Source: a virus. Taken from it: 64,000 bases of DNA. Below the pieces are notes generated by a model. The model was not told the DNA's origin and made no database searches. It saw nothing but the letters and a program-made list of their open reading frames with translations. The DNA is taken from positions 1 to 64,000 of the IMG/VR virus record IMGVR_UViG_3300025108_004223. The stretch is one strand, 5' to 3'. The number at the start of each line of letters is the position of its first letter. Positions within the stretch are counted from its first letter, which is position 1. A program made the position numbers and the translations under genes. Shown here piece after piece: positions 3-42,003 of the stretch.

Positions 3-56
3 TACGATTTAATCAAACAGGGCAGAGCACAAGAAGTATGGGATAAGTGGAAATGA
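3..56 (+). CDS. 3' end of an upstream gene (partial)
   Basis: The reading frame is open from the window edge to a TGA at 54-56 and encodes the last 17 residues of a protein, ending in a Trp/Lys-rich tail (...EVWDKWK). The stop overlaps the ATG of the next gene as ATGA, the junction used throughout this phage, which supports both the frame and the neighbour's start. The product cannot be identified from so short a tail. Confidence 0.5.
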   Translation, partial: YDLIKQGRAQEVWDKWK

Positions 57-1621
57 GAATAATTGAAATAACATCATTATTATTTGAAAAATATATAGCA
101 GAAAAACTGCCTACTAAAGATCAAGAATCAGGTGACAAAAAAGAAAAACCCCAAGGTGTTGAAATTGCTACATGGATAGGACCAAATGCAAATACTTGGG
201 ATCCTGCACAAGCACTGTTATTTAGAAAAATGGAGAAGTTAGGATATTCTAAAGAAAAAATATTTAGTCAAACTGGAACAATAAGAATGAATAATGGGAG
301 GTTAGCTCAAGAGATAAATGATAAAGATCAAACATGGAATCCAGAATATTTAAATGACAACGGTGGATTGAATATGTATGTTTATAATAATGACAGCTTT
401 GGCGATCTTAAAGGTGCAGTTAAATTAGGTGATCTATTAGATCATCCAGGATTATTTAATGCATATCCACAATTAAAAGATACTCCTGTAATTCTTGATA
501 AATCAGGTTTAATTGGTGGTGGATCTTATAATTATAACACTGGTCTAATAAAATTAAACGTAGGTGATGGTAACGGTAATGCGATAGGTTTAAACAAAGG
601 TGCTATGGGCGATATATTAGACACATTAACACATGAAATTGGTCATGCTATTCAACATGGTCCAGAAGTGAACCATTTTTCTAAAGGTGGAAATCCAGCA
701 TCAAGCCAAATTCAGAAAATTGGAAAAAATATTGAAAGAACTTGGTCAGAAATAGCTGATAAAGAATATGATATAGGTGATTTAGGATACTATTCATTGG
801 ATGGTGAAGGTGAGGCAGAGAATGCCAATAACAGAAAAGAATACACTGACAAAGAAAGAGCTGAAAGCTACCCATCATTTAATACATTTTCGGAAGTTAT
901 AACAATTCAAGGTAATGAAATTCCACAGCATATTAAAGATAAGTTACCACCTGGCTATAAATCTGTAATAACTAAGGTAGAGAGAACAAAGAGAAATCCC
1001 ACAGGCACATATATATCATTTCCCAATCCTGATTATAAAAGGATCGAAACTAAAATTATAAATGATTACATTAAGGCAAACCCCATACCATCATATGATA
1101 ATAATATTGACCCTTACCAAGATAAGATTAATAAATTGCTAGGAATTGATACAAATGCTATTCCAGACGACCCTGCGCCAATACCAGCGCCACCAGAACC
1201 AATACCAGAACCAACACCAACACCTGCACCTGCACCTGCACCAAAACCTACACCAGCGCCTAAACCTACACCAAAAATAAAAAAACCAACTAACCCAGGT
1301 GATAGAGCAGGAATAAACAAACCAAAAGTTAATCCTAATCCTAATCCAGGAATAGATGCAACTACGCCTATTCAACAACCAGCAAAACTACCACCATCTG
1401 GTAATGCAAATATAAAAACTCCTTCGATACAAACACCACCAGTTGATAGAAATAATCCATTTCAGATGTATCCGGATAATACACAAAGCTCAACAACTAA
1501 ACCAGGAGGACATGGGAAGAATTCAATATCAACCCATCCAGAAAAACCACCAAAAGTAAATAAACAACCACCAAAAGTAAAAAAACAACCACCAGGGAAA
1601 CAAGCTAATGAACGTAAATAA
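53..1621 (+). CDS. Putative zinc metallopeptidase with Pro-rich tail and capsid-targeting-like N-terminus
   Basis: The product has 522 residues. A gluzincin-type HExxH motif (THEIGHAIQHG, His194-Glu195-His198) implies a zinc-dependent peptidase; the third ligand is not certain. Roughly residues 360-520 are low-complexity Pro/Lys/Asn sequence with repeated PAPAP and KPTPAP units, probably disordered. I chose ATG 53 over an in-frame GTG at 47 because it makes an ATGA overlap with the preceding stop and because it begins MRIIEITSLLFE, matching the short N-terminal peptide shared by many genes in the first 15 kb and ending in the L-x-E expected for T4-type prohead protease cleavage. Inference: an internal virion protein that could act on cell wall or host protein during entry. 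The family is unknown to me, and the substrate cannot be read. Confidence 0.7.
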   Translation: MRIIEITSLLFEKYIAEKLPTKDQESGDKKEKPQGVEIATWIGPNANTWDPAQALLFRKMEKLGYSKEKIFSQTGTIRMNNGRLAQEINDKDQTWNPEYLNDNGGLNMYVYNNDSFGDLKGAVKLGDLLDHPGLFNAYPQLKDTPVILDKSGLIGGGSYNYNTGLIKLNVGDGNGNAIGLNKGAMGDILDTLTHEIGHAIQHGPEVNHFSKGGNPASSQIQKIGKNIERTWSEIADKEYDIGDLGYYSLDGEGEAENANNRKEYTDKERAESYPSFNTFSEVITIQGNEIPQHIKDKLPPGYKSVITKVERTKRNPTGTYISFPNPDYKRIETKIINDYIKANPIPSYDNNIDPYQDKINKLLGIDTNAIPDDPAPIPAPPEPIPEPTPTPAPAPAPKPTPAPKPTPKIKKPTNPGDRAGINKPKVNPNPNPGIDATTPIQQPAKLPPSGNANIKTPSIQTPPVDRNNPFQMYPDNTQSSTTKPGGHGKNSISTHPEKPPKVNKQPPKVKKQPPGKQANERK

Positions 1622-1919
1622 AGAAAACATTTGGCATTTTACTTGTGATTACTGTCAAGGTTTTTGGAGTATAGCGACTATGGATGACTGGGAGCCTACA
1701 AACTTATATTGCACTCATTGTGGTGAACAAAATAAAAATGAAGGACATATTAGATTTGGAACCTCATCTTATACTAGAGCAGAAGATAGTTTTCAAAAAG
1801 AAATATGTTCATGTGGTCACAAAGTTATAGATTGCGATTGTGCACCAGGATGTAAATGTGGATGTAACAGACGTTACTTAGATTCCGAAACAAGTTTTGA
1901 TATGGAAAAATATACATGA
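1608..1919 (+). CDS. Small cysteine-rich zinc-ribbon protein
   Basis: The product has 103 residues and 11 cysteines. Two CxxC knuckles (Cys13/16 and Cys35/38) make a classic zinc ribbon. A second cluster (Cys67, 69, 76, 78, 82, 84, 86) of CxC and CxCxC pairs could bind further metal. The gene overlaps the end of the peptidase gene by 14 bases and the radical SAM gene after it by ATGA, so the three are probably translated together. The Cys-rich tail beside a radical SAM enzyme raises the possibility of a metal or Fe-S accessory role, but that is inference. No catalytic motif is visible. Confidence 0.75.
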   Translation: MNVNKENIWHFTCDYCQGFWSIATMDDWEPTNLYCTHCGEQNKNEGHIRFGTSSYTRAEDSFQKEICSCGHKVIDCDCAPGCKCGCNRRYLDSETSFDMEKYT

Positions 1920-3085
1920 CATATTCAACAGCATGTTCAAAGAGTTGGACAGACGTAAATGTAGATTTTAAACGAGGCACAGTAGGTCATTGTTGTAAGT
2001 CAGTGTATTATGACTTACCTAATGAATATACATCTAATTTTTTCACTAATAGTGAGCATATTCAAAAACGTAGACAAGATACTCTCAACGGCATTCAACA
2101 TCCAGATTGTCAAACATGTTGGAAAGATATTAAAAATGGAGTTACTCCGTTTAAGGATTGGATGAACGAATGGAAAAACTTTGACAGCGTTAAAATAGAT
2201 GAACCACAAGTTAATTACATTGAAGTTGATTTAGACAACACTTGCGATTTAAGTTGTTTATATTGCAGTGCTGATGCAAGTAGTAAGATTGCACAAGAAG
2301 AAGGTATTAAAGGCATTGATAAAACAAGACAAAAAGATATTGAAAATTTTACATATTGGTTAAAGAATACAGTTAACAATTCCAAAAGTCATATTGATAT
2401 TGCATTTTTAGGCGGTGAACCTACAGCAAGTAAATTATTTTACGAACTAATTGATTATATTGTAACATTAGATACTAGTAATGTCACAATACAAATAACA
2501 ACAAATTGTAACAGCAAAGCTCACTTATTTAAGAAATTATTAAATGCAATGGATAAATGTCAGTGTGATTGGCAAATTAATATTAGTAATGAAAGTTACA
2601 AAGACGATAGTGCGTTAATTAGATATGGATTAGATTGGGATAGATTCGAACAAAATTTATGTTCTTATGCCTCACATAAAAAAGTTAGATACATTAGTTT
2701 TGATGCTACTATGACTAGTCTTGCAATACCAACATTTACTAGATATATTCAATGGGTATTAGATACAATGGCAAACTATACTAAAAAATTCGGTATAATA
2801 GGAGATGCAGTATTTTGGCCAGGTGAGTTAGATGTAGCAATACTTCCAGAGTCTTTTAAACCCCATATGGACTCAGCAATACAATTAGTAAAAGAAAACA
2901 GATTGTCTAATTATGAAAACAAAAAAACTACTTTAACATTTCTCGAAGGAATAAAAACTCGCATTGGTTCTAACTACAAGGAAGATTATACAAATACAGT
3001 TGCACAGTTTTTAGTGCCAAAACAAAAGTATAAAAAGACAGATAAACTTATGAGATTAGTAGACTCACTAGGAGAAATAAAATGA
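1916..3085 (+). CDS. Radical SAM protein with N-terminal Cys-rich (twitch/SPASM-like) segment
   Basis: The product has 389 residues. The radical SAM [4Fe-4S] motif CxxxCxxC is at Cys110, Cys114, Cys117 (CDLSCLYC), followed by the SAM-binding GGEPT at about residue 166. Before the barrel is the segment seen in most radical SAM proteins of this window: an early CC pair (26-27), a line of R/Q-rich helix and a CxxC (DCQTCW, 65-68). That order (Cys-rich region first, barrel second) is the architecture called twitch-domain radical SAM in phage annotations. Substrate unknown. The gene is flanked by ATGA overlaps on both sides and sits among putative virion genes. Confidence 0.9.
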   Translation: MTYSTACSKSWTDVNVDFKRGTVGHCCKSVYYDLPNEYTSNFFTNSEHIQKRRQDTLNGIQHPDCQTCWKDIKNGVTPFKDWMNEWKNFDSVKIDEPQVNYIEVDLDNTCDLSCLYCSADASSKIAQEEGIKGIDKTRQKDIENFTYWLKNTVNNSKSHIDIAFLGGEPTASKLFYELIDYIVTLDTSNVTIQITTNCNSKAHLFKKLLNAMDKCQCDWQINISNESYKDDSALIRYGLDWDRFEQNLCSYASHKKVRYISFDATMTSLAIPTFTRYIQWVLDTMANYTKKFGIIGDAVFWPGELDVAILPESFKPHMDSAIQLVKENRLSNYENKKTTLTFLEGIKTRIGSNYKEDYTNTVAQFLVPKQKYKKTDKLMRLVDSLGEIK

Positions 3086-3309
3086 CACAAGACGATGTCT
3101 ATAGATTACAATATCTTGCAGGTATTATAGATAAGCAAGGTGATACTATAAAACCAACTGATGAATCCAACCTAAGTATTGTTGGAAGTGCTAAAGGTCA
3201 GTATATGCGTAAGCATAATGTTAAGCCAGGCACTGACGAGTGGTTCAAACTATGGTTCAGTAGACCAAAACTAACAGGTGAAAACCCTACACCAAAGCAA
3301 GGCGGATAA
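3082..3309 (+). CDS. Small conserved-looking phage protein
   Basis: The product has 75 residues and starts by ATGA overlap with the radical SAM gene. The first 15 residues carry the pattern RLQYLAGI, a short leucine/alanine segment that recurs at domain edges in proteins of marine T4-like phages; the rest is charged and probably partly disordered, with a basic, aromatic stretch around residues 36-60. No enzyme motif is present. Position in front of the nucleotidyltransferase gene and inside the candidate virion cluster suggests a structural or accessory role, but nothing more can be said. Confidence 0.7.
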   Translation: MTQDDVYRLQYLAGIIDKQGDTIKPTDESNLSIVGSAKGQYMRKHNVKPGTDEWFKLWFSRPKLTGENPTPKQGG

Positions 3310-3310
3310 C

Positions 3311-4861
3311 ATGTTAATTAATGAGGTAATTATCTTACAAGAAGAAAAGCTAGATATTAACTCTATTGTAACACCTGCGATCAAATACTTAGATAAAGTA
3401 TTCAAAGATAACAACTTTGAGATACGTATTGTTGGAGGTGCAGTGCGTGATATTGCATTAAATAAATTACCTAAAGATATTGACTTTGCCTCAGATGCAA
3501 CACCAGATGAAATGATTGCTATGTTTGATAAAGAAGCAATCAAATACATTCCTACAGGTTTACAACACGGAACAATAACCGCAGTAGTAAACGGAGAAGA
3601 TTTTGAAATCACAACACTAAGAGCAGACAAACAAACAGACGGCAGACATGCTGAAGTAGAGTTTGTTCGTAGTTGGGAAGAAGATGCTAAACGCAGAGAC
3701 TTAACATACAATGCTATGAGCATGGATATCGATGGCGAGCTATACGATTACCACAATGGCATGGACGACCTACAAGACAAAGTAAGTAAATTTGTAGGCG
3801 AACCAGAACAAAGAATTACAGAAGATTATTTACGTATATTACGTTACTTCCGTTTCCAAGGTAGACTATCAGAGCCTACTTGGGATAAAGATACATTACA
3901 AGCAATTAAAACGCATGCCAAAGGACTATCCGGTATTAGTGCCGAGAGAATATGGGCAGAAATGAGCAAAGCACTTTCAGGACAAAATATTGCAAGTATA
4001 TTATCAACTATGCACAAAACAGGTGTAGCACAAGTAATAGGATTAAACGTAAACAATTTAAGTGCAATAAAAGATGGCGGCAACCCAATTATAGCACTAG
4101 CACAACTAGGCAACGATTTAGACATTGCAAAGCGTTGGAAAATGAAAAATACAGAAGCAGAGTTATTGGGCTTTTTAGTTAAGAACAAAAACAATTCACT
4201 TGATCAAAAGAAAGTGGAAGATATGATTGCTGATGGTGTTAAGCGTGAATTGATTACAGCACTAGCATCAATGCAAAACAAAAACGTAAACATAGATGCA
4301 AAAGTTCCAGACTTTCCAGTTACAGGAGCAGACTTAATTGCTAAAGGCATGAAACCAGGCCCAGATTTGGGTAAAAAATTAGCACAGTTAAAGCAACAAT
4401 GGAAGGCTGGTAATTTTACTGCCACAAGAGATGATTTATTAAAAGAAGATCCAGACTTGTCTACCGAACGAGGCAGATTAGAATATTATCTAAAAAAGCC
4501 TATACCAGAAGGAATGTTAGTTAGTTTATATAAGTTAGGAAAGTTCCATCAAGGAGCAGATCCATTAGCAGAAATAGTTCCAGAACGTAATGGAGGATTT
4601 GCATTACATCCTGATAAATGGGAAAGCACATTTTACAGTCTAACAAACAAAGATTTTAAAAAGATAGGTTATTACAAACCTATGATAATAAAAGCACCAG
4701 CAAATACAATAGTTGCTGATATGGCCATTGCAAATCAATTTTATAGGACAGACGATCCTAACGAACGCAATAGACTTGCAAACGCATACAAAGACAGTAT
4801 GGGCAAAGATATTTCCAGTATGAAGATGCCTGAAGTTTTGCTAAATACTAGTAAGGAGTAA
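3311..4861 (+). CDS. tRNA nucleotidyltransferase / poly(A) polymerase-like protein with capsid-targeting-like N-terminus
   Basis: The product has 516 residues. It shows the class II nucleotidyltransferase head: GGAVRD (42-47), the metal-binding pair Asp56/Asp58 in DIDFASD, then the downstream EDAKRRDLTYNAM and EDYLRILRYFRFQGRL motifs that define CCA-adding enzymes and bacterial poly(A) polymerases. After about residue 300 the sequence departs from the family and ends in a 150-residue domain I do not recognise. ATG 3311, with SD-like aaggcgga just before it, is preferred to an in-frame GTG at 3278 because it exposes MLINEVIILQE, ending in L-Q-E. If that leader is a true targeting peptide, a tRNA-modifying or RNA-tailing enzyme is packaged in the capsid. 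The TAAATACT motif lies in its 3' end. Confidence 0.85.
   Translation: MLINEVIILQEEKLDINSIVTPAIKYLDKVFKDNNFEIRIVGGAVRDIALNKLPKDIDFASDATPDEMIAMFDKEAIKYIPTGLQHGTITAVVNGEDFEITTLRADKQTDGRHAEVEFVRSWEEDAKRRDLTYNAMSMDIDGELYDYHNGMDDLQDKVSKFVGEPEQRITEDYLRILRYFRFQGRLSEPTWDKDTLQAIKTHAKGLSGISAERIWAEMSKALSGQNIASILSTMHKTGVAQVIGLNVNNLSAIKDGGNPIIALAQLGNDLDIAKRWKMKNTEAELLGFLVKNKNNSLDQKKVEDMIADGVKRELITALASMQNKNVNIDAKVPDFPVTGADLIAKGMKPGPDLGKKLAQLKQQWKAGNFTATRDDLLKEDPDLSTERGRLEYYLKKPIPEGMLVSLYKLGKFHQGADPLAEIVPERNGGFALHPDKWESTFYSLTNKDFKKIGYYKPMIIKAPANTIVADMAIANQFYRTDDPNERNRLANAYKDSMGKDISSMKMPEVLLNTSKE
4842..4849 (+). promoter_or_regulatory. TAAATACT motif, candidate late promoter
   Basis: One of six copies of the octamer that precede gene starts in this window; here it ends 17 bases before the ATG at 4867. 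It resembles the T4 late promoter core TATAAATA. Whether it works as a promoter is inference. Confidence 0.35.
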
Positions 4862-4866
4862 ACATA

Positions 4867-6747
4867 ATGCGTATTAATGAAGTAGACAACCCAGTAACAC
4901 AGGCTGATATTGATCAGTTAGAAGTGTTTGCTGACCGTTTGTTTGCTAAAGTAGGTATTGATGTAGAATTTACTCGACACTTTTTAAATAGAGTCAATGA
5001 CGAACGTAATGTAAAACAAATTACAATGTCAGAACTTACACGACTATTCAAACAAGAATACAAACGTTGGGGCAAGCCAATTGCACAACTAGGCCCAGAT
5101 GCAGAAGCAGTAATGAGAGATATGGCAACAGATATTAATTTGCCATTTGCATTACGTTGGGATCACAAGAATAATGAATTAGATCTTATTGCTAAAACAG
5201 TAATGCGTAAAGCAAACTTCACAACATCCAACCAAGAGTTTGCAGTAGAAGGTTATCGATCTATGTTTAGGCAAAGTGCTTATGAATTAGCTGCAGATAG
5301 ATTACACAGTGTATTACAGCGTAAAGAAAAAGAAAACGGTGGTGTATTTAGACATGCACTAGGTTGGTATGCATCTAAAATTGCAAGTGGATTTAGAGAT
5401 ATTGACAGTGGAGAATTAAAAGCATACTATCAAAAGAATTATGATACAGTATTAAGCGAAAGTGACTTATCATATGCTCCAACCATGCTAATGGAACAAG
5501 CGTTACCAAATATGTGGCCAAGTAATCCACAGCAATTCCAAAGTAAATTAGGCACCCTTCCAGGCCCAGCAAATCAAGTAAGAGGAAACATTATTGAATT
5601 GTTTCCAGAACAGTTAAAAAATAATCCAAGAATAAGAATAAGTGTAGGAAACTACTTTGTAAAGAATCCAGCAATCTTCAAAGAGTTAGTTGCAGCAAAT
5701 GATAACAATGCAAGTAGATTTAGAATTCCAGGTTGGCTTAAAAAAACCGCCCCATTTGCAAAAGTATTTGGTGGAATACTAACTAGTATACTATGGCCAA
5801 CACCATTAGGAGATCCAAACGAAGCACAGACTGTAATATTATATAATATGATAGAAAGTATTATTAGAACTGATCCTGGTGCTGCAATAAACGATATTAA
5901 AGAATGGTATAAGGATCAAGGTAAAGCAGAAGATTATGTTGACGATTGGTATTATCAAAATGCAGTAAGACACCATAACAAACAAATACTAAAACAATTA
6001 GAAGGTGTAGTTGATCCTGCATTAAAAAATGCTGCAAATAAGATAGCTGAAAGAATACGTAAGGCACAAAATCAAAAAGAATTGGATGATTTAATTGGCA
6101 CAATAGATGGACCATTACAGAATGCAATTAATAACCTAGCACCAAATGTAATGACCGAGCTTCCACCCGAGGCATTGTTAAATCCTGAAACTAATACAAC
6201 AGAGTTAGGATTAAACCCACCACCATTAGAATTTGATGATCCAACTGAAATTTTTGATATACCTCCATTGGTAGATCCAGCAAAAGATAATCCACCATTA
6301 GAAATATTTCCACCAGACCCAGTTACGGAACCAAAACTACCTATAGAGCCAGCTCCAAAAGGCCCTGAGGTTGTAACTATTCCACCTAAACAACCAAAGA
6401 ATCCAAAACAAAACCCGGATAATCCAGAGGTGCCGGATAGCCCACCATCTGATCAGCCAGATATTAAAATTCCACAGCCGCTTAACGCACCTCAACAGGA
6501 CATACAGTTTATTCCACCAGCAAATGTAACTGACCCAGAAATAGCATTTCGGGATAAACCAGCTTTACCTCCAGTTCCAGTATCTGCTGCTCCGCCAACT
6601 GGCGGCGGCAATGGTAATGGTAATAAAAATAATAATAAAAAGCGTAGGAAGAAAAATGATTGGGGTAACGGTAATAGTTCAAATTATGATGATCCATTAC
6701 AACGTTGGCAAAAGAAATATGGAACATGGGAGCCTACTGACCGATGA
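4867..6747 (+). CDS. Candidate internal virion protein, Pro-rich tail
   Basis: The product has 626 residues. The N-terminal 120 residues contain a helical block (FTRHFLNRVNDERN ... ELTRLFKQEY) that I recognise as common to proteins of marine T4-like phages but without known activity. Residues 125-370 are mixed alpha/beta of unknown type, and the last ~200 residues are Pro/Asn-rich with a run of Gly and Asn before a basic, Trp-containing end. It starts MRINEV, the leader pattern of this cluster, though no perfect L/I-x-E site follows within 12 residues. SD aaggag lies at 4853-4858. The stop overlaps the next ATG. Role inferred only from context and leader. Confidence 0.75.
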   Translation: MRINEVDNPVTQADIDQLEVFADRLFAKVGIDVEFTRHFLNRVNDERNVKQITMSELTRLFKQEYKRWGKPIAQLGPDAEAVMRDMATDINLPFALRWDHKNNELDLIAKTVMRKANFTTSNQEFAVEGYRSMFRQSAYELAADRLHSVLQRKEKENGGVFRHALGWYASKIASGFRDIDSGELKAYYQKNYDTVLSESDLSYAPTMLMEQALPNMWPSNPQQFQSKLGTLPGPANQVRGNIIELFPEQLKNNPRIRISVGNYFVKNPAIFKELVAANDNNASRFRIPGWLKKTAPFAKVFGGILTSILWPTPLGDPNEAQTVILYNMIESIIRTDPGAAINDIKEWYKDQGKAEDYVDDWYYQNAVRHHNKQILKQLEGVVDPALKNAANKIAERIRKAQNQKELDDLIGTIDGPLQNAINNLAPNVMTELPPEALLNPETNTTELGLNPPPLEFDDPTEIFDIPPLVDPAKDNPPLEIFPPDPVTEPKLPIEPAPKGPEVVTIPPKQPKNPKQNPDNPEVPDSPPSDQPDIKIPQPLNAPQQDIQFIPPANVTDPEIAFRDKPALPPVPVSAAPPTGGGNGNGNKNNNKKRRKKNDWGNGNSSNYDDPLQRWQKKYGTWEPTDR

Positions 6748-6935
6748 AGATAAAAGACATACTAAAGTTACCCAATATTGAAATCGGAGATGAAATATTA
6801 GTAGGCAAATTTAAAAACCGTAAAGCAGTAGTTACAGGATTTGCAACAGATGAGAATAACCAGCCTGTGTTAAAAACAACCAAAGGCGATCAAAAACTAT
6901 TCAAACCAAGAATAGTTAAATTAATGGACAAGTAA
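6744..6935 (+). CDS. Small beta-barrel-like phage protein
   Basis: The product has 63 residues and begins MKIKDILKLPNIE, a variant of the shared leader. The remainder (GDEILVGKFKNRKA ... KLFKPRIVKL) reads as alternating hydrophobic strands with conserved glycines, as in a small SH3/KOW-like barrel, and is basic. It starts by ATGA overlap and is followed after one base by the next gene. Function unknown; nucleic-acid binding is possible given the charge, but that is a guess. Confidence 0.7.
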   Translation: MKIKDILKLPNIEIGDEILVGKFKNRKAVVTGFATDENNQPVLKTTKGDQKLFKPRIVKLMDK

Positions 6936-6936
6936 A

Positions 6937-7383
6937 ATGAAGATATATGACATCATTTCAGATAATAATTCTTTATTAGAATTAGAACAATGGGCTAAAA
7001 GACAAGTGCCGTTATTTGAAGAAGGTATGTCTACTGAGAAATTGAGCAAGTCAATTCTACAAAGAGCCTTAGATAAATTCAAAAAACAACCAGAACCAAG
7101 TGAAGAAAAAACTAAAGAAATGCAAGATTACATGGAACAGTTAGAAATGAAACTTGGTAATGAAAAAGTAGAAAAAACAACACTACAAAAATTCTTTGGT
7201 TTCTTTCGTAAGCATCCAAAATTGATAGGACTAGGTGTTATCATATTAATGTTATTGTCACCAGTATTACCATCAATTGCAGTAGTAGGATTAACTTTAG
7301 AAAAAGTCTTGTCAGTTATATTAGCAGGATTATATACAATCGACATAGCCTCTCCGGCAGTTAAAACAGCAATGGAATTATAA
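6937..7383 (+). CDS. Membrane-anchored protein with leader MKIYDII
   Basis: The product has 148 residues. The leader is MKIYDIISDNNSLLE, then a charged, helical stretch (about 30-80) and a strongly hydrophobic C-terminal third with two likely membrane helices (about residues 96-113 and 117-137). An N-terminal capsid-targeting-like peptide together with membrane helices would fit an injected protein that inserts in the host inner membrane, but this is inference. The stop overlaps the following start by one base. Confidence 0.7.
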   Translation: MKIYDIISDNNSLLELEQWAKRQVPLFEEGMSTEKLSKSILQRALDKFKKQPEPSEEKTKEMQDYMEQLEMKLGNEKVEKTTLQKFFGFFRKHPKLIGLGVIILMLLSPVLPSIAVVGLTLEKVLSVILAGLYTIDIASPAVKTAMEL

Positions 7384-8138
7384 TGAAAATATTTGAAATT
7401 ATAAATGAATGGGATTCTGGTGTTAAGAGAGTTAACACAGGCATTGATATGAAAGCTGCACTGGCTAAACGAGCTGCACAAATATCTTCACCGGGAACTA
7501 ATCCAACTTTAAGCACTAGAACAAGTGTTACTAGAAATAGTAATTCAGGCACAGGTACCACACATAAAACATTTAGTAAGTATACACAAAAGATGGGAGA
7601 CTTAGGCGGAACATCATTAAGTAAAGTAAACAATATAAAAAAGTCAGCAGATGGAGCCACAGGCACTAGCACAAAACGATTTGTTAGACCAGGCGGAGCT
7701 GGAACACAGAGCGTAACAAACGTTGGCACTGGAAAAACAACTAATACTAAGTTTCAACTAAAAGGTCCACAAAGTTGGGCATATGATAAACCAAAATTAA
7801 ATGCTTCTAAGAAAATAAAAGAAATAACATCAGATGAAAGGCGTGCTAGAAAGAAAGCATACGCACTTAAAACAATGGCAAAATACCGTAAAGCTGCAGA
7901 ACTAGGCATAGATCCGTCCAAAGTTAATCAACGCAGAGATCAACCAACTCCTGTTAAAGAAGATGGCGTAATTGTTCCAGGTGTTAACACTACTGTAGAT
8001 GTTAAGCCAGGCGAAACAGAACGTCAAGCTGCGAAATTTGGTAACGGCAAAATAAAAGAACTAATGCCCAAAGCACGTAAGAACAGCAAGCCTAACACAT
8101 TATACAACATGGGATTAGCTGAAAAGAAATCCAAGTAA
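7383..8138 (+). CDS. Basic low-complexity protein with leader ending I-N-E
   Basis: The product has 251 residues and opens MKIFEIINE, closely matching the 10-residue T4 capsid targeting sequence in length and in its terminal I-x-E. What follows is Thr/Ser/Gly/Lys-rich and strongly basic, with no recognisable domain; a helical KKAYALKTMAKYRKAAELG region lies near residue 160. DNA-binding internal proteins of T4-like heads are of this kind (small, basic, removed of their leader), so I infer an internal or head-packaged protein. No enzyme motif seen. Confidence 0.7.
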   Translation: MKIFEIINEWDSGVKRVNTGIDMKAALAKRAAQISSPGTNPTLSTRTSVTRNSNSGTGTTHKTFSKYTQKMGDLGGTSLSKVNNIKKSADGATGTSTKRFVRPGGAGTQSVTNVGTGKTTNTKFQLKGPQSWAYDKPKLNASKKIKEITSDERRARKKAYALKTMAKYRKAAELGIDPSKVNQRRDQPTPVKEDGVIVPGVNTTVDVKPGETERQAAKFGNGKIKELMPKARKNSKPNTLYNMGLAEKKSK

Positions 8139-8147
8139 GGATATAAA

Positions 8148-9368
8148 ATGTCCACTCCTAGTGACAACATAGTAAACAGATACAACAAATCGTTCTGTAT
8201 TAAACCTTTCACTGAAATATCAAATTCCGCAGTTGGACACAGGCAACTTTGTTGTAGAAGCGATACATTAATATACACAGGCGATGTTAATAGCTCATCA
8301 CTTACCGAAGACTTTTTTAATCATCCAAAAATGAATGAGGTTAGAAGAAAAATGCTCGCCGGTGAAGAAGTAGAAGAATGTTGGATATGTGCCGACTCAG
8401 AAAAAGCAAGAGGAAAATCACACAGAACATTTGTAATGCAAGAGTTTGAAAGAATGGCTCCTAAACTAACAGATGAAATATTTCAAAATGGCAAAATAGA
8501 ATTAAAGTCACTTGATATACGTTTTGGGACCAAATGTAATCTAGCGTGTGTAATGTGTGGTCCTGGTAGCAGTAGTTTAATTGCAAAAGAAGAAGAAGAC
8601 GATGAGTTTCAATTAGTTGACTTAAACGACTTTTCATTGGATGCTATTAAAAAACATTCTGAAGGTATTGTGTTATTTAAAACAACTGGTGGCGAACCTA
8701 TGTTGTTACCTGCATATAAGAAAACACTTGAGTTTTTTGTAGAAAAGGGTTATGCAAAAGATATAGAGTTCACAACTATTACAAATGGCACAATTGATTA
8801 TAGTGACCTCATGCCACTAATGAATGAATTTAAATATTTTAAAATTAGTCATAGTATAGATGCAGCAGATCAATCATATGATTATGTTAGATGGCCAGGA
8901 ACAATGTCACGTATACAGCGTATACACCAGCGTATTGTAGAGAATTCTAAACAGTATAAAAATATAAGACTTGAATTTGGTGCTACTATACATGTATTAA
9001 ACGTAGATCAAGTAGTAAAGATTAGCAAATACTTATGTGAACTTGGACAGAATACTAAAAATAATTATGCAGTTGATATGGTGCATGAACCAGACTATAT
9101 GCAACCAGGATTAGTTCCAAAAAAAGTAATAGATGAATTAGAAGAAGAATACTATGCATGGGATAAGCCAAAAGGTTATCGCAGCGGACCTGAAATAATT
9201 GATTTTATTAAAGTTTTGCGTTATAATTATGAGAAAATAAATAGTAATAAGGAACATAAACAAGAGTTACTTAATCAGCTAGAAGCCAAAACAATATTTT
9301 GGAAAGCAAAAAGAAAACTTGATGTTCGTGATTATATTCCATACTACAAGGAGATTCGAACACAATGA
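8148..9368 (+). CDS. Radical SAM protein with N-terminal Cys-rich (twitch/SPASM-like) segment
   Basis: The product has 406 residues. The cluster motif is Cys130-x3-Cys134-x2-Cys137 (CNLACVMC), followed by TGGEP at 180-184. The N-terminal part holds the shared pattern: FCIKPFTEI near residue 20, a CC pair (RQLCCRS), a helix with the NEVRRKMLAGEE signature, and ECWIC about residues 77-81 followed by a Glu-rich stretch. SD aaggata lies 10 bases before ATG 8148. The stop overlaps the start of a GNAT gene by ATGA, so the pair is probably co-translated. It may modify a peptide or small molecule; substrate unknown. Confidence 0.9.
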   Translation: MSTPSDNIVNRYNKSFCIKPFTEISNSAVGHRQLCCRSDTLIYTGDVNSSSLTEDFFNHPKMNEVRRKMLAGEEVEECWICADSEKARGKSHRTFVMQEFERMAPKLTDEIFQNGKIELKSLDIRFGTKCNLACVMCGPGSSSLIAKEEEDDEFQLVDLNDFSLDAIKKHSEGIVLFKTTGGEPMLLPAYKKTLEFFVEKGYAKDIEFTTITNGTIDYSDLMPLMNEFKYFKISHSIDAADQSYDYVRWPGTMSRIQRIHQRIVENSKQYKNIRLEFGATIHVLNVDQVVKISKYLCELGQNTKNNYAVDMVHEPDYMQPGLVPKKVIDELEEEYYAWDKPKGYRSGPEIIDFIKVLRYNYEKINSNKEHKQELLNQLEAKTIFWKAKRKLDVRDYIPYYKEIRTQ

Positions 9369-9778
9369 GAATAGTATTAAAAAGATTAAGCACTAAAGAC
9401 TTATATAAATTAACAAGCATATTAGATTATGATACTGCTACATTGGCAAACATTGCTTGGCCGTTTGACAGAAGTGTCGCAATGCAATTTATTAATGATT
9501 ACAATACCTGGGGCGTTTGGATTAATCAAGATACACTAGTTGGAGCAGTTGAAGTAAAAGAAGATTTAGAAACTGCATATTTTATTAAAAAAGGCTGGCG
9601 TAACACAGGTATAGGCTCAAGAGCTATTGAACTATGTGTAGAAGAATTTGGCGATCAACAGTTATGGTGTGTTATTAATCCAGACAATAAAGCAAGTTTA
9701 AAAGTAGCACAAAAAGGTGGATTACGAGTTAAGTTTATTGATTCAGATAAAACAGACGTAATTACTGTTGTAAAATAG
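9365..9778 (+). CDS. GNAT-family N-acetyltransferase-like protein
   Basis: The product has 137 residues, the size of a minimal GNAT fold. Seen in order: a beta strand LVGAVEVKE, AYFIKKGWRNTGIGSRAI (the Arg/Gln-x-x-Gly-x-Gly/Ala acetyl-CoA pyrophosphate loop) near residues 77-92, and the C-terminal NPDNKASLKVAQKGGLR segment typical of motif B. It would transfer an acetyl group from acetyl-CoA to an amine. ATGA overlap with the radical SAM gene upstream suggests a joint task. Acceptor unknown. Confidence 0.8.
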   Translation: MRIVLKRLSTKDLYKLTSILDYDTATLANIAWPFDRSVAMQFINDYNTWGVWINQDTLVGAVEVKEDLETAYFIKKGWRNTGIGSRAIELCVEEFGDQQLWCVINPDNKASLKVAQKGGLRVKFIDSDKTDVITVVK

Positions 9779-9786
9779 AGAATGAT

Positions 9787-10023
9787 ATGTCTAACAAAAA
9801 GATTACTCGAGAAGATCTGACTGCTACAGAAGGCCCGATGAACAATGTAGTAGACGAAGATGCAATGGTTTATGCTAAAGCAGACCCAAATAGACCTCTT
9901 GATATACATAAAGAACGTCAAGTTAGAGCTAAAAAACAAAAAATAAAGAAAAGTAGTAAGAAAGCAGACCGTAGAATTACTAAAAGTTTAATTAGGAACA
10001 TTGATAACCTTCCAAAAGATTGA
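9787..10023 (+). CDS. Small basic protein
   Basis: The product has 78 residues. The first half is acidic to neutral, and residues 45-72 are a dense Lys/Arg helix (VRAKKQKIKKSSKKADRR), suggesting nucleic-acid contact. There is a weak SD (agagaatgat) upstream. No family recognised. It lies between the GNAT gene and a leader-bearing small gene, so it may be another structural accessory. Confidence 0.6.
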   Translation: MSNKKITREDLTATEGPMNNVVDEDAMVYAKADPNRPLDIHKERQVRAKKQKIKKSSKKADRRITKSLIRNIDNLPKD

Positions 10024-10041
10024 CAAAAGAAATCAAATAGA

Positions 10042-10049
10042 TAAATACT
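10042..10049 (+). promoter_or_regulatory. TAAATACT motif, candidate late promoter
   Basis: The octamer ends three bases before the ATG at 10053, in the 29-base gap after the stop at 10023. If it is a -10-type late promoter, the transcript would begin at or inside the start codon, so it would serve either a leaderless message or the next gene at 10244. A TTGACA overlaps the upstream stop at 10020-10025, 16 bases away. Confidence 0.35.
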
Positions 10050-10052
10050 AGT

Positions 10053-10247
10053 ATGAAAATATATGACATCATAACAGAAGATGCTGATGCAGGTTCTACA
10101 ATGGCAGGTAATGTTGCCAGTGTAAGTTTTCCATTGTTTGGGAAAAAGAAGATGATCAGGCGTGCTGTTGATCCAAAAGGATATTTGGGTGACGGTAAAA
10201 TTAAAAAACAATCAACTGGATATAATACAAAGGTTAAGTTAAAATGA
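10053..10247 (+). CDS. Small phage protein with capsid-targeting-like leader (ends I-T-E)
   Basis: The product has 64 residues and begins MKIYDIITE, then DADAGSTMAGNVASVSFP, a Gly/Ala/Ser segment, and a basic tail. The first nine residues are the best match in the window to the T4 pattern MKTYQEFIAE. No SD is visible before this ATG. The gene overlaps the next by ATGA. I infer a processed internal virion protein; after cleavage about 55 residues would remain. Confidence 0.7.
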   Translation: MKIYDIITEDADAGSTMAGNVASVSFPLFGKKKMIRRAVDPKGYLGDGKIKKQSTGYNTKVKLK

Positions 10248-10543
10248 AAATTAACGAAATCAATGAATCAATATACAGTATGAATCCTGAAGAACCTATG
10301 AATCCTGAAGTATTAATACAAGGTTATGGTAGATTAAATTTAAAGCAATTAGAAGATAAAGTAGGTAAGATGTTTGACGAACTTGCTGAAAGAGCCAGAC
10401 GAGGAGATTGGGAAGGTGTGCAATACAACCTAAACAAAGGACTTGTTCAGGAATTTATTAAAACCATCAATGTAGCATATGATGAGTTAGAACAAAAACG
10501 AAGACGCGGCGGCAAGAGTAGTCGTGGCATTGAAAAGAGGTAA
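10244..10543 (+). CDS. Small helical protein with capsid-targeting-like leader (ends I-N-E)
   Basis: The product has 99 residues and starts MKINEINE. The rest is predicted helical and highly charged, with a LKQLEDKVGKMFDELAERARRGDW segment that reads as an amphipathic helix pair and a basic RRRGGKSSRG end. ATGA overlap with the previous gene; SD-like sequence before the following gene. No known fold recognised. Candidate internal virion protein by leader and context. Confidence 0.7.
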   Translation: MKINEINESIYSMNPEEPMNPEVLIQGYGRLNLKQLEDKVGKMFDELAERARRGDWEGVQYNLNKGLVQEFIKTINVAYDELEQKRRRGGKSSRGIEKR

Positions 10544-10548
10544 CGACT

Positions 10549-11718
10549 ATGAGCAAAGAGCAAAAAATTGACAATACTTTTAATAAAGTAATGGACGATA
10601 TAAACCGATTACAAAAGGCATTTCAGCCAAACAAGAATTTAGAAAAGGCTATCGCAGAGGTAGGCGGAGATATTTCTTGGTTAAAAGAAATTAACGAATC
10701 ATTTGATAAACTATACGATATGCTTGAAGAAGGGCATATGGGTGCAGTAGCACATTTACAAATGGACGAAGAATTAAGTAAGAAGAAAAAAATTAAACCA
10801 AACACACCAGTTGGTATGGTAGCAGAAGGCGTATTAGACAGTGATGATGATGACGGATTTATGGCACGTAGCCAACTATATTTCTTAGCCAGAGATGCAA
10901 TTAAATTGCACAGCGTTATAGATGATAGAGATGACTTGGAGCCATGGGTTGCAAGTAAAATTGCTCAAGCTAGTAAAGACATGGATTCAGTTCGTCGTTA
11001 CACTGAATACAATGCCATGAAAGCTGAAGTAGAACCAGAAATGCAGCCAGCACCAGAAGTAGAATCACTAGAAGAAGATCCTGAAGCACGTAAAATGCAA
11101 GTAACTAATGCTGATAGAAATGCAAATACAGAAGCATGGAAACGTTTTAGAGCAGGCGATCCAAGATATGAATATATAAAGCCTAAAGAAATTAACTTAC
11201 CAGTAAAAGAAGGCACTATGATTGGCGGACTAATGAAATATGACGGTCAACCAGAAGGCGAATATGCAGACGCAGTAGCAAAATATAAAGAGTTTATGTC
11301 TAAACCTCGTCCAGCAAGTGAAGAAACAACTGACATGGTGCAAGGTTTTGTATTTGATGATGATTTATTAGATAGCCTAGACGAAGCACAAGATAATAAT
11401 GATGTAGACGTTAGACACATTGTTCAAAGCAGATTAGAAGATTTCTTTGGTCCAGACTTTGAACTTGGGTTAGATGAAGCTATTCGTCCAGTAAGAAGTG
11501 CAGCTTCTAAACTAAACCAAATTGGACAAGGCGTTCGTAATAAAACTAATGACGAAACACCAATGAAAGTTGGCGAACAGAAAAAGAAAAAGAAATACGA
11601 AGCAGTTAAAGAAGAAACAAAATTTGATGATAAAAATGCACACAGTGAATTAAAAACAGTTGCACAGGACATGTTTAAGCATGCACTGGCAAACGCTAAG
11701 AAAAAAGCGAGGAAATAA
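10549..11718 (+). CDS. Large acidic candidate virion protein
   Basis: The product has 389 residues. A helical module around residues 100-145 (LYFLARDAIKLHSVI ... EPWVASKI ... VRRYTEYN) is a pattern I recognise from virion-linked proteins of marine T4-like phages. Glu/Asp-rich linkers separate it from a C-terminal Lys-rich helical end. It lacks the MKI leader itself, unlike its neighbours, but contains several L/I-x-E triplets that a prohead protease could cut. RBS aggtaacgact precedes ATG 10549. Function unknown. Confidence 0.7.
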   Translation: MSKEQKIDNTFNKVMDDINRLQKAFQPNKNLEKAIAEVGGDISWLKEINESFDKLYDMLEEGHMGAVAHLQMDEELSKKKKIKPNTPVGMVAEGVLDSDDDDGFMARSQLYFLARDAIKLHSVIDDRDDLEPWVASKIAQASKDMDSVRRYTEYNAMKAEVEPEMQPAPEVESLEEDPEARKMQVTNADRNANTEAWKRFRAGDPRYEYIKPKEINLPVKEGTMIGGLMKYDGQPEGEYADAVAKYKEFMSKPRPASEETTDMVQGFVFDDDLLDSLDEAQDNNDVDVRHIVQSRLEDFFGPDFELGLDEAIRPVRSAASKLNQIGQGVRNKTNDETPMKVGEQKKKKKYEAVKEETKFDDKNAHSELKTVAQDMFKHALANAKKKARK

Positions 11719-11720
11719 CT

Positions 11721-13415
11721 ATGAAAGCTGATCAATTAAACGAATTTAACAAAGCAGATTACGAAGAAAACGAATCAGTAAATCTTCACAGTGAAAATGC
11801 ATTAGAGCTTGCTAAAGAATTTGGAACACCAGAAGAAGTAGAAGCAATGCAAAGAATTATGGATCAGCACATGCGTAGAGGACACATTCTACCGCACGAA
11901 GTAGAAGAGCGTAATGCACTAACATCAAAATATTACAGCATGTTGGAGCATTCAGTTAACCCAACACTTAGATCAAAATTAGAAGGCTACAAAGTTCTTC
12001 CTCCAATGGATAAAGAAAAATATCAAGCACGTAATGGACTCGAAGGTCCATTTACTACATTAAGCGGTAAAGTAGTTTACTACGATCCAAAAGAAGGAAA
12101 GTATTACGATCCAGACACAGACATTTATCTTTCATACGATGAATTCCAACAGTATGATAACGATTACAGTGGCATGGGTGATGAAGAAGCAGATGATTTT
12201 GTTAAAGATATTAAACCAAAAGAAACTGTAAAAGGTCCAAGAGGACATTTAAGTTCTATTGTAGCTGAAGATCTTAATAAAATAGCTAGGTGGGAGAGTA
12301 AATTATCAAAGGGTGAGAAAATAAAAAGGATAACTGTTATCAAAGAAGGCCTAGATAACGATGACACACGTAATATTGCTATTCGTTGTGTTGATGAAAT
12401 GGTTAGAGAAGGCTTAATTGCTAATGACATGGATACAGATGGAGATACTGAATTTCAAATACAAGATATTATTCATGACCAAATAAACAAAGCGTTGAAT
12501 GTATCAGAAGCAGAAGTATCAGTTGACAACGCAGGCAATATAGCAGGCTACTTAAACACAATTGATGAGTATGCTGAACAGGTATCTCTAATAGACGATC
12601 AATCGCGTCCAGAAGATATTAAGGAAATGGCTTACAGAATTCAAAATGCTGTAGACGACATTAGAATGAGAGAACTTGGATTAAAGCCAAGCAATATTAG
12701 ATCTCAATTTGAATCAGTAAAAGAAGCAACACATAGTGACGCTAAACCAATTTATGATTTAGTTGGCTCATTAGGCGCAGGAAAAATTGAATTAGCACAG
12801 AATCCTATATTTCATAAGTTAGTTCGTTTCTTAGATGCTGATACTATTGAAAAGTTTGTTGCAGATTTTAGAAAGAAGTTAGACAATGGCGAATCAATAG
12901 AAGAAGCAAATGAAGGAAAACAATCAGAGAAAGTAAGAAACATTGACAATATTCTAAAGAGTATGGGTGCTGATAATCCAAGCGATATCATTGCTGATAT
13001 TATGCATTGGATTGATGCAAACCCAGATGAAGACTTAGAAAGTTTAATAAGACGAGCTAATGGTTATTACAATAATGAATTAGGTGAAACAGACATTAAT
13101 GAGTTTGGTCCAGATGAACGTTATATGAAGATTGGCAATAATACAATGATTGCAAATAGAAAAACAGGTAGTGTAAGCAGCACTTTAAGTTTAGGTGGTG
13201 ATAAAACAGCAACGGTCAATAATCACTTTAATAAAGATGGTTCACAAGGCCAAATTAGTGCAAGAGGAACAGTAGGTGGTGTAAAGTTTAAAGCCAGTAA
13301 CAACATAAACGGTAATGCACCCAAGGCAACAGCAACTCATAAAGGTGTAACTATTAATAGACAAGGTCAATTGGTTAATGCATCTAAGAAACCAAAAAAG
13401 GCGGAGAAAAAATAA
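11721..13415 (+). CDS. Large candidate internal virion protein, leader ends L-N-E
   Basis: The product has 564 residues and begins MKADQLNE, a leader-like octapeptide ending L-x-E. An early helical block (residues 25-80, with HMRRGHILPHEVEERNAL) is followed by a Tyr/Asp-rich YYDPKEGKYYDPDTDIYLSYDEF motif, long acidic helices, and a C-terminal Gly/Asn/Thr/Lys-rich beta-like repeat (about 470-550). No catalytic motif identified. Two bases separate it from the gene before, and its stop overlaps the next ATG. It could be a scaffold or an internal head protein; this rests on position and leader only. Confidence 0.7.
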   Translation: MKADQLNEFNKADYEENESVNLHSENALELAKEFGTPEEVEAMQRIMDQHMRRGHILPHEVEERNALTSKYYSMLEHSVNPTLRSKLEGYKVLPPMDKEKYQARNGLEGPFTTLSGKVVYYDPKEGKYYDPDTDIYLSYDEFQQYDNDYSGMGDEEADDFVKDIKPKETVKGPRGHLSSIVAEDLNKIARWESKLSKGEKIKRITVIKEGLDNDDTRNIAIRCVDEMVREGLIANDMDTDGDTEFQIQDIIHDQINKALNVSEAEVSVDNAGNIAGYLNTIDEYAEQVSLIDDQSRPEDIKEMAYRIQNAVDDIRMRELGLKPSNIRSQFESVKEATHSDAKPIYDLVGSLGAGKIELAQNPIFHKLVRFLDADTIEKFVADFRKKLDNGESIEEANEGKQSEKVRNIDNILKSMGADNPSDIIADIMHWIDANPDEDLESLIRRANGYYNNELGETDINEFGPDERYMKIGNNTMIANRKTGSVSSTLSLGGDKTATVNNHFNKDGSQGQISARGTVGGVKFKASNNINGNAPKATATHKGVTINRQGQLVNASKKPKKAEKK

Positions 13416-13999
13416 TGGGTATATTAAGCGATACAGTAAACGAATCTAAGAAACATTGTGGATGTGGACAAGATCCATGCGTTACATATGGTAAGCAAAC
13501 AGAAGAAGTTGTAAATGAAATAGATCCAAGTAGATCTCCATGGACACAATCAGGTAAACACCCTGGAGCTATGAATCAAGAAGAATTAGAAAGAGAAATT
13601 GCAGTGTTTAATGAACTTAGAGATAGAGGTGATCATTTATCACCTAGAGAATTAGCACAAGAAGATTCATTATATCATTATCTAGAGCAATTTAATGAAG
13701 ATGAATGTTCTACTTGTAACGGTTCAGGCTGGGACCAAAGTGTAACACCTGATGAAGATGACAGAGGTTGCGACGAATGTGGTGGCACTGGCAAGATTGA
13801 AACTGAATCATATTCTCCAGGTGACGAATACACAGATTCAGAAGGTATGGTAAGTGGATGTTGTGGTGCTCCTATGATGGACTACAACGATGGATTTGGT
13901 AGATGTTCAGATTGTAAAGAAATGGCAAGTGGTGAATCAGAAGAAGCATACTATGAAACTGCTGAAATACAAAGATTAAAAGATCTAATTAGGTATTAA
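13415..13999 (+). CDS. DnaJ-type zinc-finger protein
   Basis: The product has 194 residues with 12 cysteines. Two repeats match the DnaJ central-domain signature CxxCxGxG: Cys98-Cys101 (CSTCNGSGW) and Cys119-Cys122 (CDECGGTGK), which together form one zinc site. A third pair of knuckles (SGCCGAP ... RCSDCKE, about 150-168) gives a second ribbon, and a CGCGQDPC cluster sits at the N-terminus (18-25). There is no J domain. It ends with EIQRLKDLIRY. The start MGILSDTVNE is a loose match to the cluster leader. Role may be protein binding during head assembly; inference. Confidence 0.75.
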   Translation: MGILSDTVNESKKHCGCGQDPCVTYGKQTEEVVNEIDPSRSPWTQSGKHPGAMNQEELEREIAVFNELRDRGDHLSPRELAQEDSLYHYLEQFNEDECSTCNGSGWDQSVTPDEDDRGCDECGGTGKIETESYSPGDEYTDSEGMVSGCCGAPMMDYNDGFGRCSDCKEMASGESEEAYYETAEIQRLKDLIRY

Positions 14000-14010
14000 G
14001 GAATAATAAA

Positions 14011-15045
14011 ATGAGATTACACCATTTATTTGAAGACGAGAATGTCAAAAAAGAAATCATTGCAAAAGTAAGTGGACTAGTTGCTGACAATGAAGAAGAT
14101 GCAAAACTGTTAGATAAAATATACAGAACTTTGCACAATACAGACATTTCAGGTAAGGTTGCACAAGCATTTGCAGTTCCTACTTCAGATGATAATATTA
14201 ATCTTGAACCATTACTTAAACAACTAACACAAATTATTTTCCACGCAGGTGTTGATTATAAAAGCCTTGATGCATTCCTTAACAGATTAGAAAAAGGTAA
14301 CGTTGTAGATGTGCCTGTTCTTACTACTCCTGGAGTAGGAAGTGTAAGAGCGTTCTTTGGCGGTGATGAAACTACTACAAAAATATTTCAAGCAATGGCA
14401 ACACTAGGCGCAGGTAAAAAGCAAAAAGGCCCAGGTGAATATGCACTTGCGATGTTATCAAATCAAATTAAATTAAAACATGCTGATGGCGATATTGATG
14501 TTGCAGGCAAAGGTATAGAAGTAAAAGCAGAAACCACCTCAGGTGGTGGACGTCTTGGAGAAGGCGGTCCTACTAATGCAGTTGCAAAAGAATATTGGAG
14601 CCAAGTTCCAAGTATAGCAAATCACTTTAATCAAGGTTCAAAAGGAATGGGTATTAAAAACTTTGTTCAAGCACTGGCATTAGACTTACCGTTAAATGAT
14701 CCAGAAAAGAAAAAACAAAGACAAGATTTACTTACAAAATGGTATAGTCAGTTGTTTCCAAATGCAGGACCATTTGTTCAAGCATTTATGCAAGACGACG
14801 GAGTAGTTGCAGAAAAAATGTATGGTAAAGCAAACTTTGAATCTTACAAAAACAACTATGGATGGGACGGATTATTAAGTATTAACTTCCCTTCACTAAA
14901 ATATGTGATGGTTGCTACAGGTGATGACTTTGTTAGAATGAAAGAAGCAGGACATTTTGGTAGCTTCTCAATTAGTGTTGTGCCAAGTAGTGCAAGACCA
15001 TCAGAAGTATATTGCCAATTAAGTCTAACTAAAGCAAAAGCATAA
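14011..15045 (+). CDS. Putative PD-(D/E)XK nuclease-like virion protein, leader ends L-F-E
   Basis: The product has 344 residues and starts MRLHHLFE. In the middle, GPGEYALAML (Glu143), DGDIDV (Asp161/Asp163) and IEVKAE (Glu170-Lys172) are spaced like the E ... D ... ExK active site of restriction-endonuclease-fold nucleases, followed by a Gly-rich GGGRLGEGG loop. If correct, it cuts DNA, and its leader would place it in the capsid. The surrounding helices are not recognisable. The stop overlaps the next start as TAATG. Confidence 0.6.
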   Translation: MRLHHLFEDENVKKEIIAKVSGLVADNEEDAKLLDKIYRTLHNTDISGKVAQAFAVPTSDDNINLEPLLKQLTQIIFHAGVDYKSLDAFLNRLEKGNVVDVPVLTTPGVGSVRAFFGGDETTTKIFQAMATLGAGKKQKGPGEYALAMLSNQIKLKHADGDIDVAGKGIEVKAETTSGGGRLGEGGPTNAVAKEYWSQVPSIANHFNQGSKGMGIKNFVQALALDLPLNDPEKKKQRQDLLTKWYSQLFPNAGPFVQAFMQDDGVVAEKMYGKANFESYKNNYGWDGLLSINFPSLKYVMVATGDDFVRMKEAGHFGSFSISVVPSSARPSEVYCQLSLTKAKA

Positions 15046-17017: not shown

Positions 17018-17272
17018 ATGACAACATTTTCTGAAGCAGACGTAAATAAATTGAAGCATCTTATTAAAGAAGGCATTCAAGTAACCCAAGAAGTAGAAAC
17101 CTTGCGAGAAGGACTTCGCGATACTGTAAAAGCAATTGCAGAAGAAATGGATATTAAGCCATCCATTCTTAATAAAGCAGTGCGTGTAGCATATAAGGCA
17201 GAGTTTGCCAAAGCACGTGATGAGTTTGATGAACTTGAAACAATTCTAACAACAGTAGGCCGCGATACTTAA
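17018..17272 (+). CDS. dsbA: DsbA-like double-stranded DNA-binding / late transcription accessory protein
   Basis: The product has 84 residues, close to T4 DsbA (89). The central and C-terminal parts (LRDTVKAIAEEMDIKPSILNK, then a Lys-rich helix and EFDELETILTTVG; both shown here only in part) follow the DsbA pattern of a short helix, A-x-x-E-x-x-[IV]-x-P/D, an N-K/R-containing helix and an acidic terminal helix. T4 DsbA binds double-stranded DNA near late promoters. It has its own promoter and strong SD, and its TAA overlaps the ATG of the polymerase gene, so it is co-expressed with gp43. Confidence 0.6.
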   Translation: MTTFSEADVNKLKHLIKEGIQVTQEVETLREGLRDTVKAIAEEMDIKPSILNKAVRVAYKAEFAKARDEFDELETILTTVGRDT

Positions 17273-39789: not shown

Positions 39790-39790
39790 T

Positions 39791-40330: not shown

Positions 40331-40345
40331 AATGAAATAATACCA

Positions 40346-42002: not shown

Positions 42003-42003
42003 T

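Follow-up and report, generated by a model that had tools for sequence, protein, structure and literature searches.

A shared N-terminal peptide on unrelated genes of a T4-superfamily jumbo phage contig is probably a T4-type capsid-targeting propeptide

In the first 15 kb of a 64,000-nucleotide stretch of viral DNA (the window; positions 1 to 64,000 of IMG/VR record IMGVR_UViG_3300025108_004223), seven gene products with unrelated bodies open with a similar peptide of 8–12 residues that ends in [L/I]-x-E. This tag is probably a propeptide of the T4 capsid-targeting sequence (CTS) type, which would be cut by a gp21-like prohead protease, freeing the body in the head. At the level of sequence, T4-like targeting is supported by the gp21 and gp23 genes of related phages, by h-x-E sites (h, hydrophobic), by a mimic of the gp23 cleavage junction, and by gene clusters whose products were assigned to virions by mass spectrometry (MS). 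An incomplete contig of 126,762 bp, with a GC content of ∼35% and no close DNA relatives found in the phage collection, contains the window as its first 64 kb. The family B DNA polymerase of the window (17272..19965, + strand) has its nearest counterparts in Sinorhizobium phage Phosso and Agrobacterium phage Atu_ph07 (48–50%), which places the window among the T4-superfamily jumbo myoviruses. A scan with this polymerase as anchor yielded 47 related contigs, several of them covered in full, and the tagged module lies just upstream of the polymerase gene in the relatives examined.

Genes are named here by their start positions. The tags are MRIIEITSLLFE (53), MLINEVIILQE (3311), MKIFEIINE (7383), MKIYDIITE (10053), MKINEINE (10244), MKADQLNE (11721), and MRLHHLFE (14011), and [L/I]-x-E is clear in each. 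Positions 3 and 6 are hydrophobic by definition of the core, and position 7 is mostly I, F, T, N, or V. All N-termini listed in an earlier, sequence-only reading of the window are present in our gene calls on the contig; its looser cases, MRINEVDNP (4867), MKIKDILKL (6744), MKIYDIISDNN (6937), and MGILSDTVNE (13415), have the common core, with h-x-E absent or shifted. Genes were called with a simple hexamer and ribosome-binding-site caller, giving 180 genes on the contig, 18 of them within 53–15045 and 162 elsewhere. The starts of the tagged genes agree between this caller and the list of open reading frames (ORFs) except for 53 and 3311, which lie at internal ATGs within slightly longer, GTG-started ORFs. 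Clear tags are carried by 7–8 of the 18 genes in the interval (∼7–11 if core-only and loose cases are counted); the seven untagged genes are 1608, 1916, 3082, 8148, 9365, 9787, and 10549.

A fixed pattern, M-[KRL]-h-x-x-h plus h-x-E within residues 3–14, derived partly from the window itself, matches 8 of the 180 contig genes, as compared with 0.94 ± 0.93 (maximum 6 in 500 rounds) when residues 2–16 are permuted within each protein, which keeps N-terminal composition. The contig-wide comparison of N-termini proposed in the sequence-only reading confines the tag to the first 15 kb, where all eight matches fall (8/18 genes versus 0/162 elsewhere; Fisher p = 1.9e-9, for a region picked post hoc). 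The same excess is seen in related contigs G001, G003, G005, G007, and G010 (6–11 observed, 0.3–1.0 expected), and none of the 166 genes matches in G002, where no such module was found.

These numbers bear on whether the N-terminus could be a by-product of translation initiation (A-rich Lys/Ile starts) or of sequence bias, the peptide itself having no role. Starts rich in Lys and Ile are common in AT-rich genomes, and the contig is one; the explanation is nevertheless highly improbable, given the confinement of the tag to the module and the low count in composition-matched shuffles. In addition, the same residues are written with different codons (ATA/ATT/ATC, AAA/AGA/CGT, GAA/GAG), and Arg is about as frequent as Lys at position 2. 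The varied synonymous codons place the likeness at the protein level rather than in a copied DNA repeat, and thus point to selection on the peptide. A DNA-repeat or translation-initiation origin was rejected on this codon diversity and on the confinement to the module. The 14011 family argues in the same direction, as its tag is more conserved than the 30 residues that follow (0.85 at residues 2–8 vs 0.41 at 9–40). Across 17 divergent homologs, with bodies down to 22% identity, no variation is seen at M1, R2, L3, L6, F7, and a Glu aligned with E8, nor at E143, GD160–161, E170, and K172; the tag is as conserved as the GD-x8-ExK motif. The AlphaFold model of this protein (mean predicted local distance difference test score 81.5) has a confident body and low confidence at residues 1–20, as expected of a detachable leader.

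The tag also moves between bodies. Among relatives, it stands on roughly 50 unrelated and reshuffled body families (some of them spurious), and the block upstream of the polymerase gene is reshuffled, with domains shifting between tagged and untagged contexts. For example, the C-terminal domain of 3311 is a separate gene with its own tag (MRLHDLFE) in G010, and in G009 and G011 the domains of 10549 and 11721 are fused behind a single tag, MKISQINE. Conversely, the body of 10244 is kept while its tag varies in relatives (MKINEINE, MRIEYITE, MRADQLE, MRESQLAKE). Homologs of the CCA-adding enzyme, the HAD-like enzyme, and the nucleotidyltransferase in other phages are untagged and start at or near the catalytic domain (for the CCA-adding enzyme, in CBB, Phosso, and Atu_ph07), whereas the same three families in the window lineage have a leader of 9–18 residues ahead of that domain. 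The alignment of the 3311 protein with human TRNT1 (E=2e-80) begins no earlier than residue 15, which marks the tag as an addition to the enzyme.

T4-type head genes accompany the module in relatives. A gp21-like protease (PF03420) lies beside gp23 in G001, G004, and G013 and is also present in all nine reference phages. The contig G013 (221,643 bp) carries the tagged module, gp21 (PF03420, E=6e-26), gp22, and gp23 (PF07068, E=1e-83) together, and contains 15 matches to the tag pattern, a few of which, such as 150227 and 217018, are probably due to chance. In G013 and Atu_ph07, the gene immediately after the portal gene is short and tagged (MRFNELAQ and MKLTELFN, respectively); Phosso and CBB have relatives of it in their head operons. 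The gp23 junctions have h-x-E in 51 of 51 distinct sequences, with Leu-x-Glu in every one listed, followed by xxTAGATSAGNVATLNRV or close variants; the site is homologous to the known T4 gp23 cleavage site, at which FLTE is severed from AEIGG. By this analogy, the gp23 proteins of the group are expected to be cut at h-x-E by a gp21-type protease.

One tagged protein joins the two sets of sites. A profile built only from the 18 gp23 residues after the cut, excluding the Glu itself, was scanned against proteomes, and its best match on the contig is 10053 (score 21.2, next 14.0; 0 of 20,000 shuffles). The match starts at residue 10, right behind MKIYDIITE, so that the Glu of the tag occupies the cleavage position. 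A 10053-type protein is also the top match in G003, G005, G006, and G010. In CBB the top match is CBB_293 (KVNE ahead of NASSGATSAGGIASVSGG), and in Atu_ph07 the next match after gp23 itself is the C-terminus of a tagged 778-residue protein (39484–41820; PITE ahead of TSSAGSTGAGNVATTNGN). Matches in G001 and G007 are to proteins with KLDE and EIYE before the junction; h-x-E thus precedes the mimic in G003, G005, G010, CBB, Atu_ph07, G001, and G007, as it does in Phosso (331487–331684; ALFE ahead of HASGGGTGAGSVATSV). T4 has a counterpart: in a Smith-Waterman comparison of T4 gp23 residues 56–100 with the T4 proteome, 61.1 ranks first, without gaps (82, next 46), and Glu10 of its start, MKTFKEFIKE, aligns on gp23 Glu65 (NC_000866 18966–19130; identity as 61.1 confirmed). 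The end of the tag therefore coincides with the capsid protease junction in far-diverged phages. Binding to the shell or competition for the protease is a possible role for the mimic. In the literature searched, no report of a likeness between gp61.1 and gp23 was found, and we know of none. As a separate observation, a 274-residue T4 gene at 76061 on the minus strand of NC_000866, probably gp2, starts with MAIFQIINE and resembles the window tag.

The comparison with T4 suggests how the tag could work. In the T4 CTS, residues 4 and 7 serve targeting and residues 8 and 10 processing, and Asp at position 10 stops processing and not targeting (PMC9026906). As in the T4 peptide (MKTYQEFIAE; IPII and IPIII), the window tag is a short N-terminal peptide with a basic residue 2, an [L/I]-x-E end, and unrelated bodies behind it, and its hydrophobic spacing (I3/I6/I7/E9) is that of T4 (Y4/F7/I8/E10) one residue earlier. 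On the strength of this spacing, we propose targeting to the core followed by cleavage. As the prohead core assembles, the tag would bind the scaffold through its hydrophobic face (positions 3 and 6–7) and pull the attached protein inside. Cleavage after [L/I]-x-E at residues 8–12 by a gp21-like prohead protease, as expected for gp23, would next release the body into the head, from which it may be injected with the DNA, as in the T4 precedent of the internal proteins and Alt. The window tag differs from that of T4 in being one residue shorter, in having I, L, F, or W in place of T-Y at the first anchor, in standing on 7–11 genes of one module, and in preceding bodies that include a CCA-adding enzyme; profiles of the module proteins gave no match to the IPI, IPII, or IPIII bodies among T4 proteins.

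In a variant of this scheme, the tag would be a retained docking peptide that targets proteins to the prohead core and is not processed in most of them. The proteins 4867, 6744, and 6937 have the core but no usable Glu, and 6937 has Asp9, which recalls the T4 Asp10 substitution that blocks processing only; 6937 and 6744 might indeed be targeted without being cleaved. For the module as a whole, however, retention is unlikely in view of the seven clear cases with h-x-E at residues 8–12 and of 10053, whose Glu coincides with the gp23 junction.

Virion data from relatives also connect tagged genes with particles. The products of CBB_292, 294, 298, and 299, which surround CBB_293, were detected in CBB virions by MS (PMC5259590, Table 4), and CBB_299 carries a tag, MRFSQITED. 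Homologs of CBB_292, 294, and 298 lie in a second cluster in G013, together with tag-like genes. In Atu_ph07, CDS 31–76 are described as a cluster of virion genes, 29 of whose products were identified by MS (PMC6102473); the order of the record corresponds to the CDS numbering (capsid = 215), and this interval holds a run of tags such as MKWNDLNE, MRWEQLNE, MRWEQLTE, MKWHQLTE, and MRLFQLLE. Over the 400 kb covered, the pattern M[KR][W/h]xxhx0-2E, widened to Trp after those genes had been seen, occurs in 12 of the 47 genes in the interval vs 6 of 527 elsewhere. By extension, the tagged proteins may be present in virions of the window's own clade. These associations also bear on the alternative that the tag docks on another partner, such as the host membrane, the replication complex, or the tail or neck assembly, and that the tagged proteins do their work in the infected cell. 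In favor of this alternative, the module sits next to the DNA polymerase gene in these phages, and its enzymes, the CCA-adding enzyme included, seem suited to intracellular functions; we consider it distinctly unlikely, as relatives also have tagged genes beside portal genes and within clusters of virion genes, and 10053 copies a capsid cleavage junction. As an observation in its own right, Atu_ph07 (MF403008) has at 41844–50592 a tandem array of ∼10 tagged paralogs with a YRGM motif (phrog_12810/phrog_11975) that are perhaps Alt-like enzymes. Pfam and PDB sequence comparisons gave no support for their identity as ADP-ribosyltransferases, which is therefore not claimed.

Several results weigh against capsid targeting and cleavage. 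The sequence-only reading had proposed T4-like capsid targeting with a gp21-like protease to be sought beyond the window. The comparative evidence favors the targeting, and the protease is present in relatives, but neither the gp21 nor the gp23 family was found on the window's own incomplete contig. The h-x-E motif is missing from its usual place in the core-tagged 4867 (residue 5 only), 6744, and 6937, and some homologs of 11721 are untagged (MFTMAQFEK). The mimic ranks second rather than first in Phosso and is not among the top profile matches in G013 and G009. The window-derived pattern has no match in S-PM2 and no significant excess in the CBB proteome (6 vs 3.6 ± 1.9); nor is its excess significant in the T4 proteome, where the internal proteins have Thr at residue 3. 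To these must be added the post hoc widening of the Atu_ph07 pattern to Trp and the facts that most tagged genes of that phage are tandem paralogs and that their link to MS data is at the cluster level. Finally, no T4-type late promoter, TATAAATA, was found in the module. This octamer, the promoter core, occurs less often across the window than chance predicts (4 times, against 13 expected), which looks like avoidance outside functional sites, and ATAAATACTA, present beside 10053, shows no enrichment.

All genes of the module described below are on the + strand. The first (53..1621; tag DNA 53–88) places behind MRIIEITSLLFE a body with an HExxH motif (LTHEIGHAIQHG) and a Pro-rich tail; its homologs open with MKINEVITE or MKINEITKK, and it has no Pfam match, being metalloprotease-like by this motif only. 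The gene 3311..4861 (tag DNA 3311–3343) encodes a protein that, by its PolyA_pol head (PF01743, E=8e-34) and RNA-binding (PF12627, E=1e-10) domains, is a CCA-adding tRNA nucleotidyltransferase (residues 15–378), with an extra C-terminal domain. Three core-tagged genes follow: 4867..6747 (MRINEVD, with I-N-E only at residues 3–5), with a phrog_23027-like domain at residues 11–123 and a Pro-rich C-terminus; 6744..6935, which keeps MKI.D[IV]L in 15 homologs and may be targeting-only or unrelated; and 6937..7383, which has Asp where Glu is expected and a hydrophobic segment. The next gene, 7383..8138 (tag DNA 7383–7409), has a basic, low-complexity body and homologs that open with MKIHDIITE, MKIFDIINE, or MKINDITNE.

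Further downstream, the 64-residue T4 61.1 analogue (10053..10247; tag DNA 10053–10079) consists of the tag followed by the gp23-junction mimic DADAGSTMAGNVASVSFP; its family comprises 28 loci, and the G013 homolog is 76% identical to that of the window. It is followed by 10244..10543 (tag DNA 10244–10267), of a 99-residue family, by the untagged 10549..11718, whose domain belongs to the tagged fusions in G009 and G011 (MKISQINEA...), and by 11721..13415 (tag DNA 11721–11744), with a 564-residue body of which segment 96–138 is common to Vibrio KVP40-type phage proteins. The loose case 13415..13999 reads MGILSDIVNE in a relative. The last gene, 14011..15045 (tag DNA 14011–14034), encodes a candidate PD-(D/E)XK nuclease by sequence motif; its model has no fold match in the PDB and matches only uncharacterised phage proteins. 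The sequence-only reading had described the cargo as enzymes and DNA-binding proteins. The first part holds for the CCA-adding enzyme, to which the metalloprotease-like protein and the candidate nuclease can be added by motif only, and DNA binding is unproven; the rest of the putative cargo comprises small proteins that are basic or of low complexity, and unknowns.

The untagged 75-residue protein of 3082..3309 (+ strand) starts with YRLQYLAGI, a sequence similar to the C-terminal end of the gp22 scaffold protein in relatives (ELRRLAGI). The gp22 proteins end in L-[RK]-[RK]-LAG[IL] (G001 93372–94457; Phosso 245307–246719), and small module proteins with an LxxLAGI-like start are encoded at 3082 in the window, at 50197 in G007, and at 188728 in G013. 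This segment is possibly a second core-docking element. The 127-kb contig encodes ∼15–20 radical-SAM/SPASM-like proteins, many mutually related, which is very unusual for a phage (1916, 8148, 32875, 43039, 51030, 53161, 54845, 56192, 60948, and 62183 in the window, with more in the contig); ferredoxin-like and iron-sulfur assembly-like genes, recognized by eye (25222, 25723, 27531), lie near them.

To our knowledge, phiKZ and SPN3US use a different protease lineage and cleavage motif and have no short shared N-terminal tag like that of the window. They are similar in that a prohead protease processes many head proteins and the load of ejected proteins is large (PMC7411985, PMC10052503). The ip genes of T-even phages were found through their shared N-terminal signal, and at least ten are reported (Repoila 1994, as cited in PMC12373910). 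A shared signal and variable cargo are common to both systems, and injected T-even proteins act against host defence; the characterised T4 internal proteins inhibit type IV restriction enzymes, whereas here several large proteins and enzymes are tagged in a distant marine jumbo lineage. T4 gp61.1 (hypothetical, 54 residues) shares a CTS-like start followed by a gp23-junction copy with 10053, CBB_293, and Phosso 449; the mimic follows each phage's own gp23, and in Atu_ph07 and G001 it forms the C-terminal portion of a longer protein. The CTS has been proposed by reviewers of T4 as a general route for incorporating diverse proteins (PMC9026906). The principle is thus already known, and the novelty lies in the lineage, in how large the battery is and which enzymes it contains, in the altered consensus, and in the mimic of the capsid junction.

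A broader view, which is tentative and on balance doubtful, is that in this phage lineage a swappable tag and the prohead protease form a general loading system, which packs at least 12 whole enzymes per head for delivery early in infection, for instance to undo tRNA- or DNA-cleaving defences, and that the 61.1-type mimic is a widespread, unrecognised head component of the T4 superfamily, taking the place of gp23 in binding to the shell or to the protease. The cargo may then include the CCA-adding tRNA repair enzyme, a HAD-type enzyme, a nucleotidyltransferase, and the candidate nuclease. If T4-type targeting is correct, swapping of the tag onto new bodies would allow phages to recruit different enzymes as head cargo, and the injected proteins of T4-superfamily jumbo phages, including uncultured marine ones, could be read from 8–12 genome-encoded residues. 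The T4 CTS concept would then reach beyond small anti-restriction proteins to enzymes, for example one of tRNA repair, and T4 gp61.1, at present annotated as hypothetical, would gain a possible role in the head as a capsid-junction mimic. In engineered phage heads, the tag could be used as a signal for loading.

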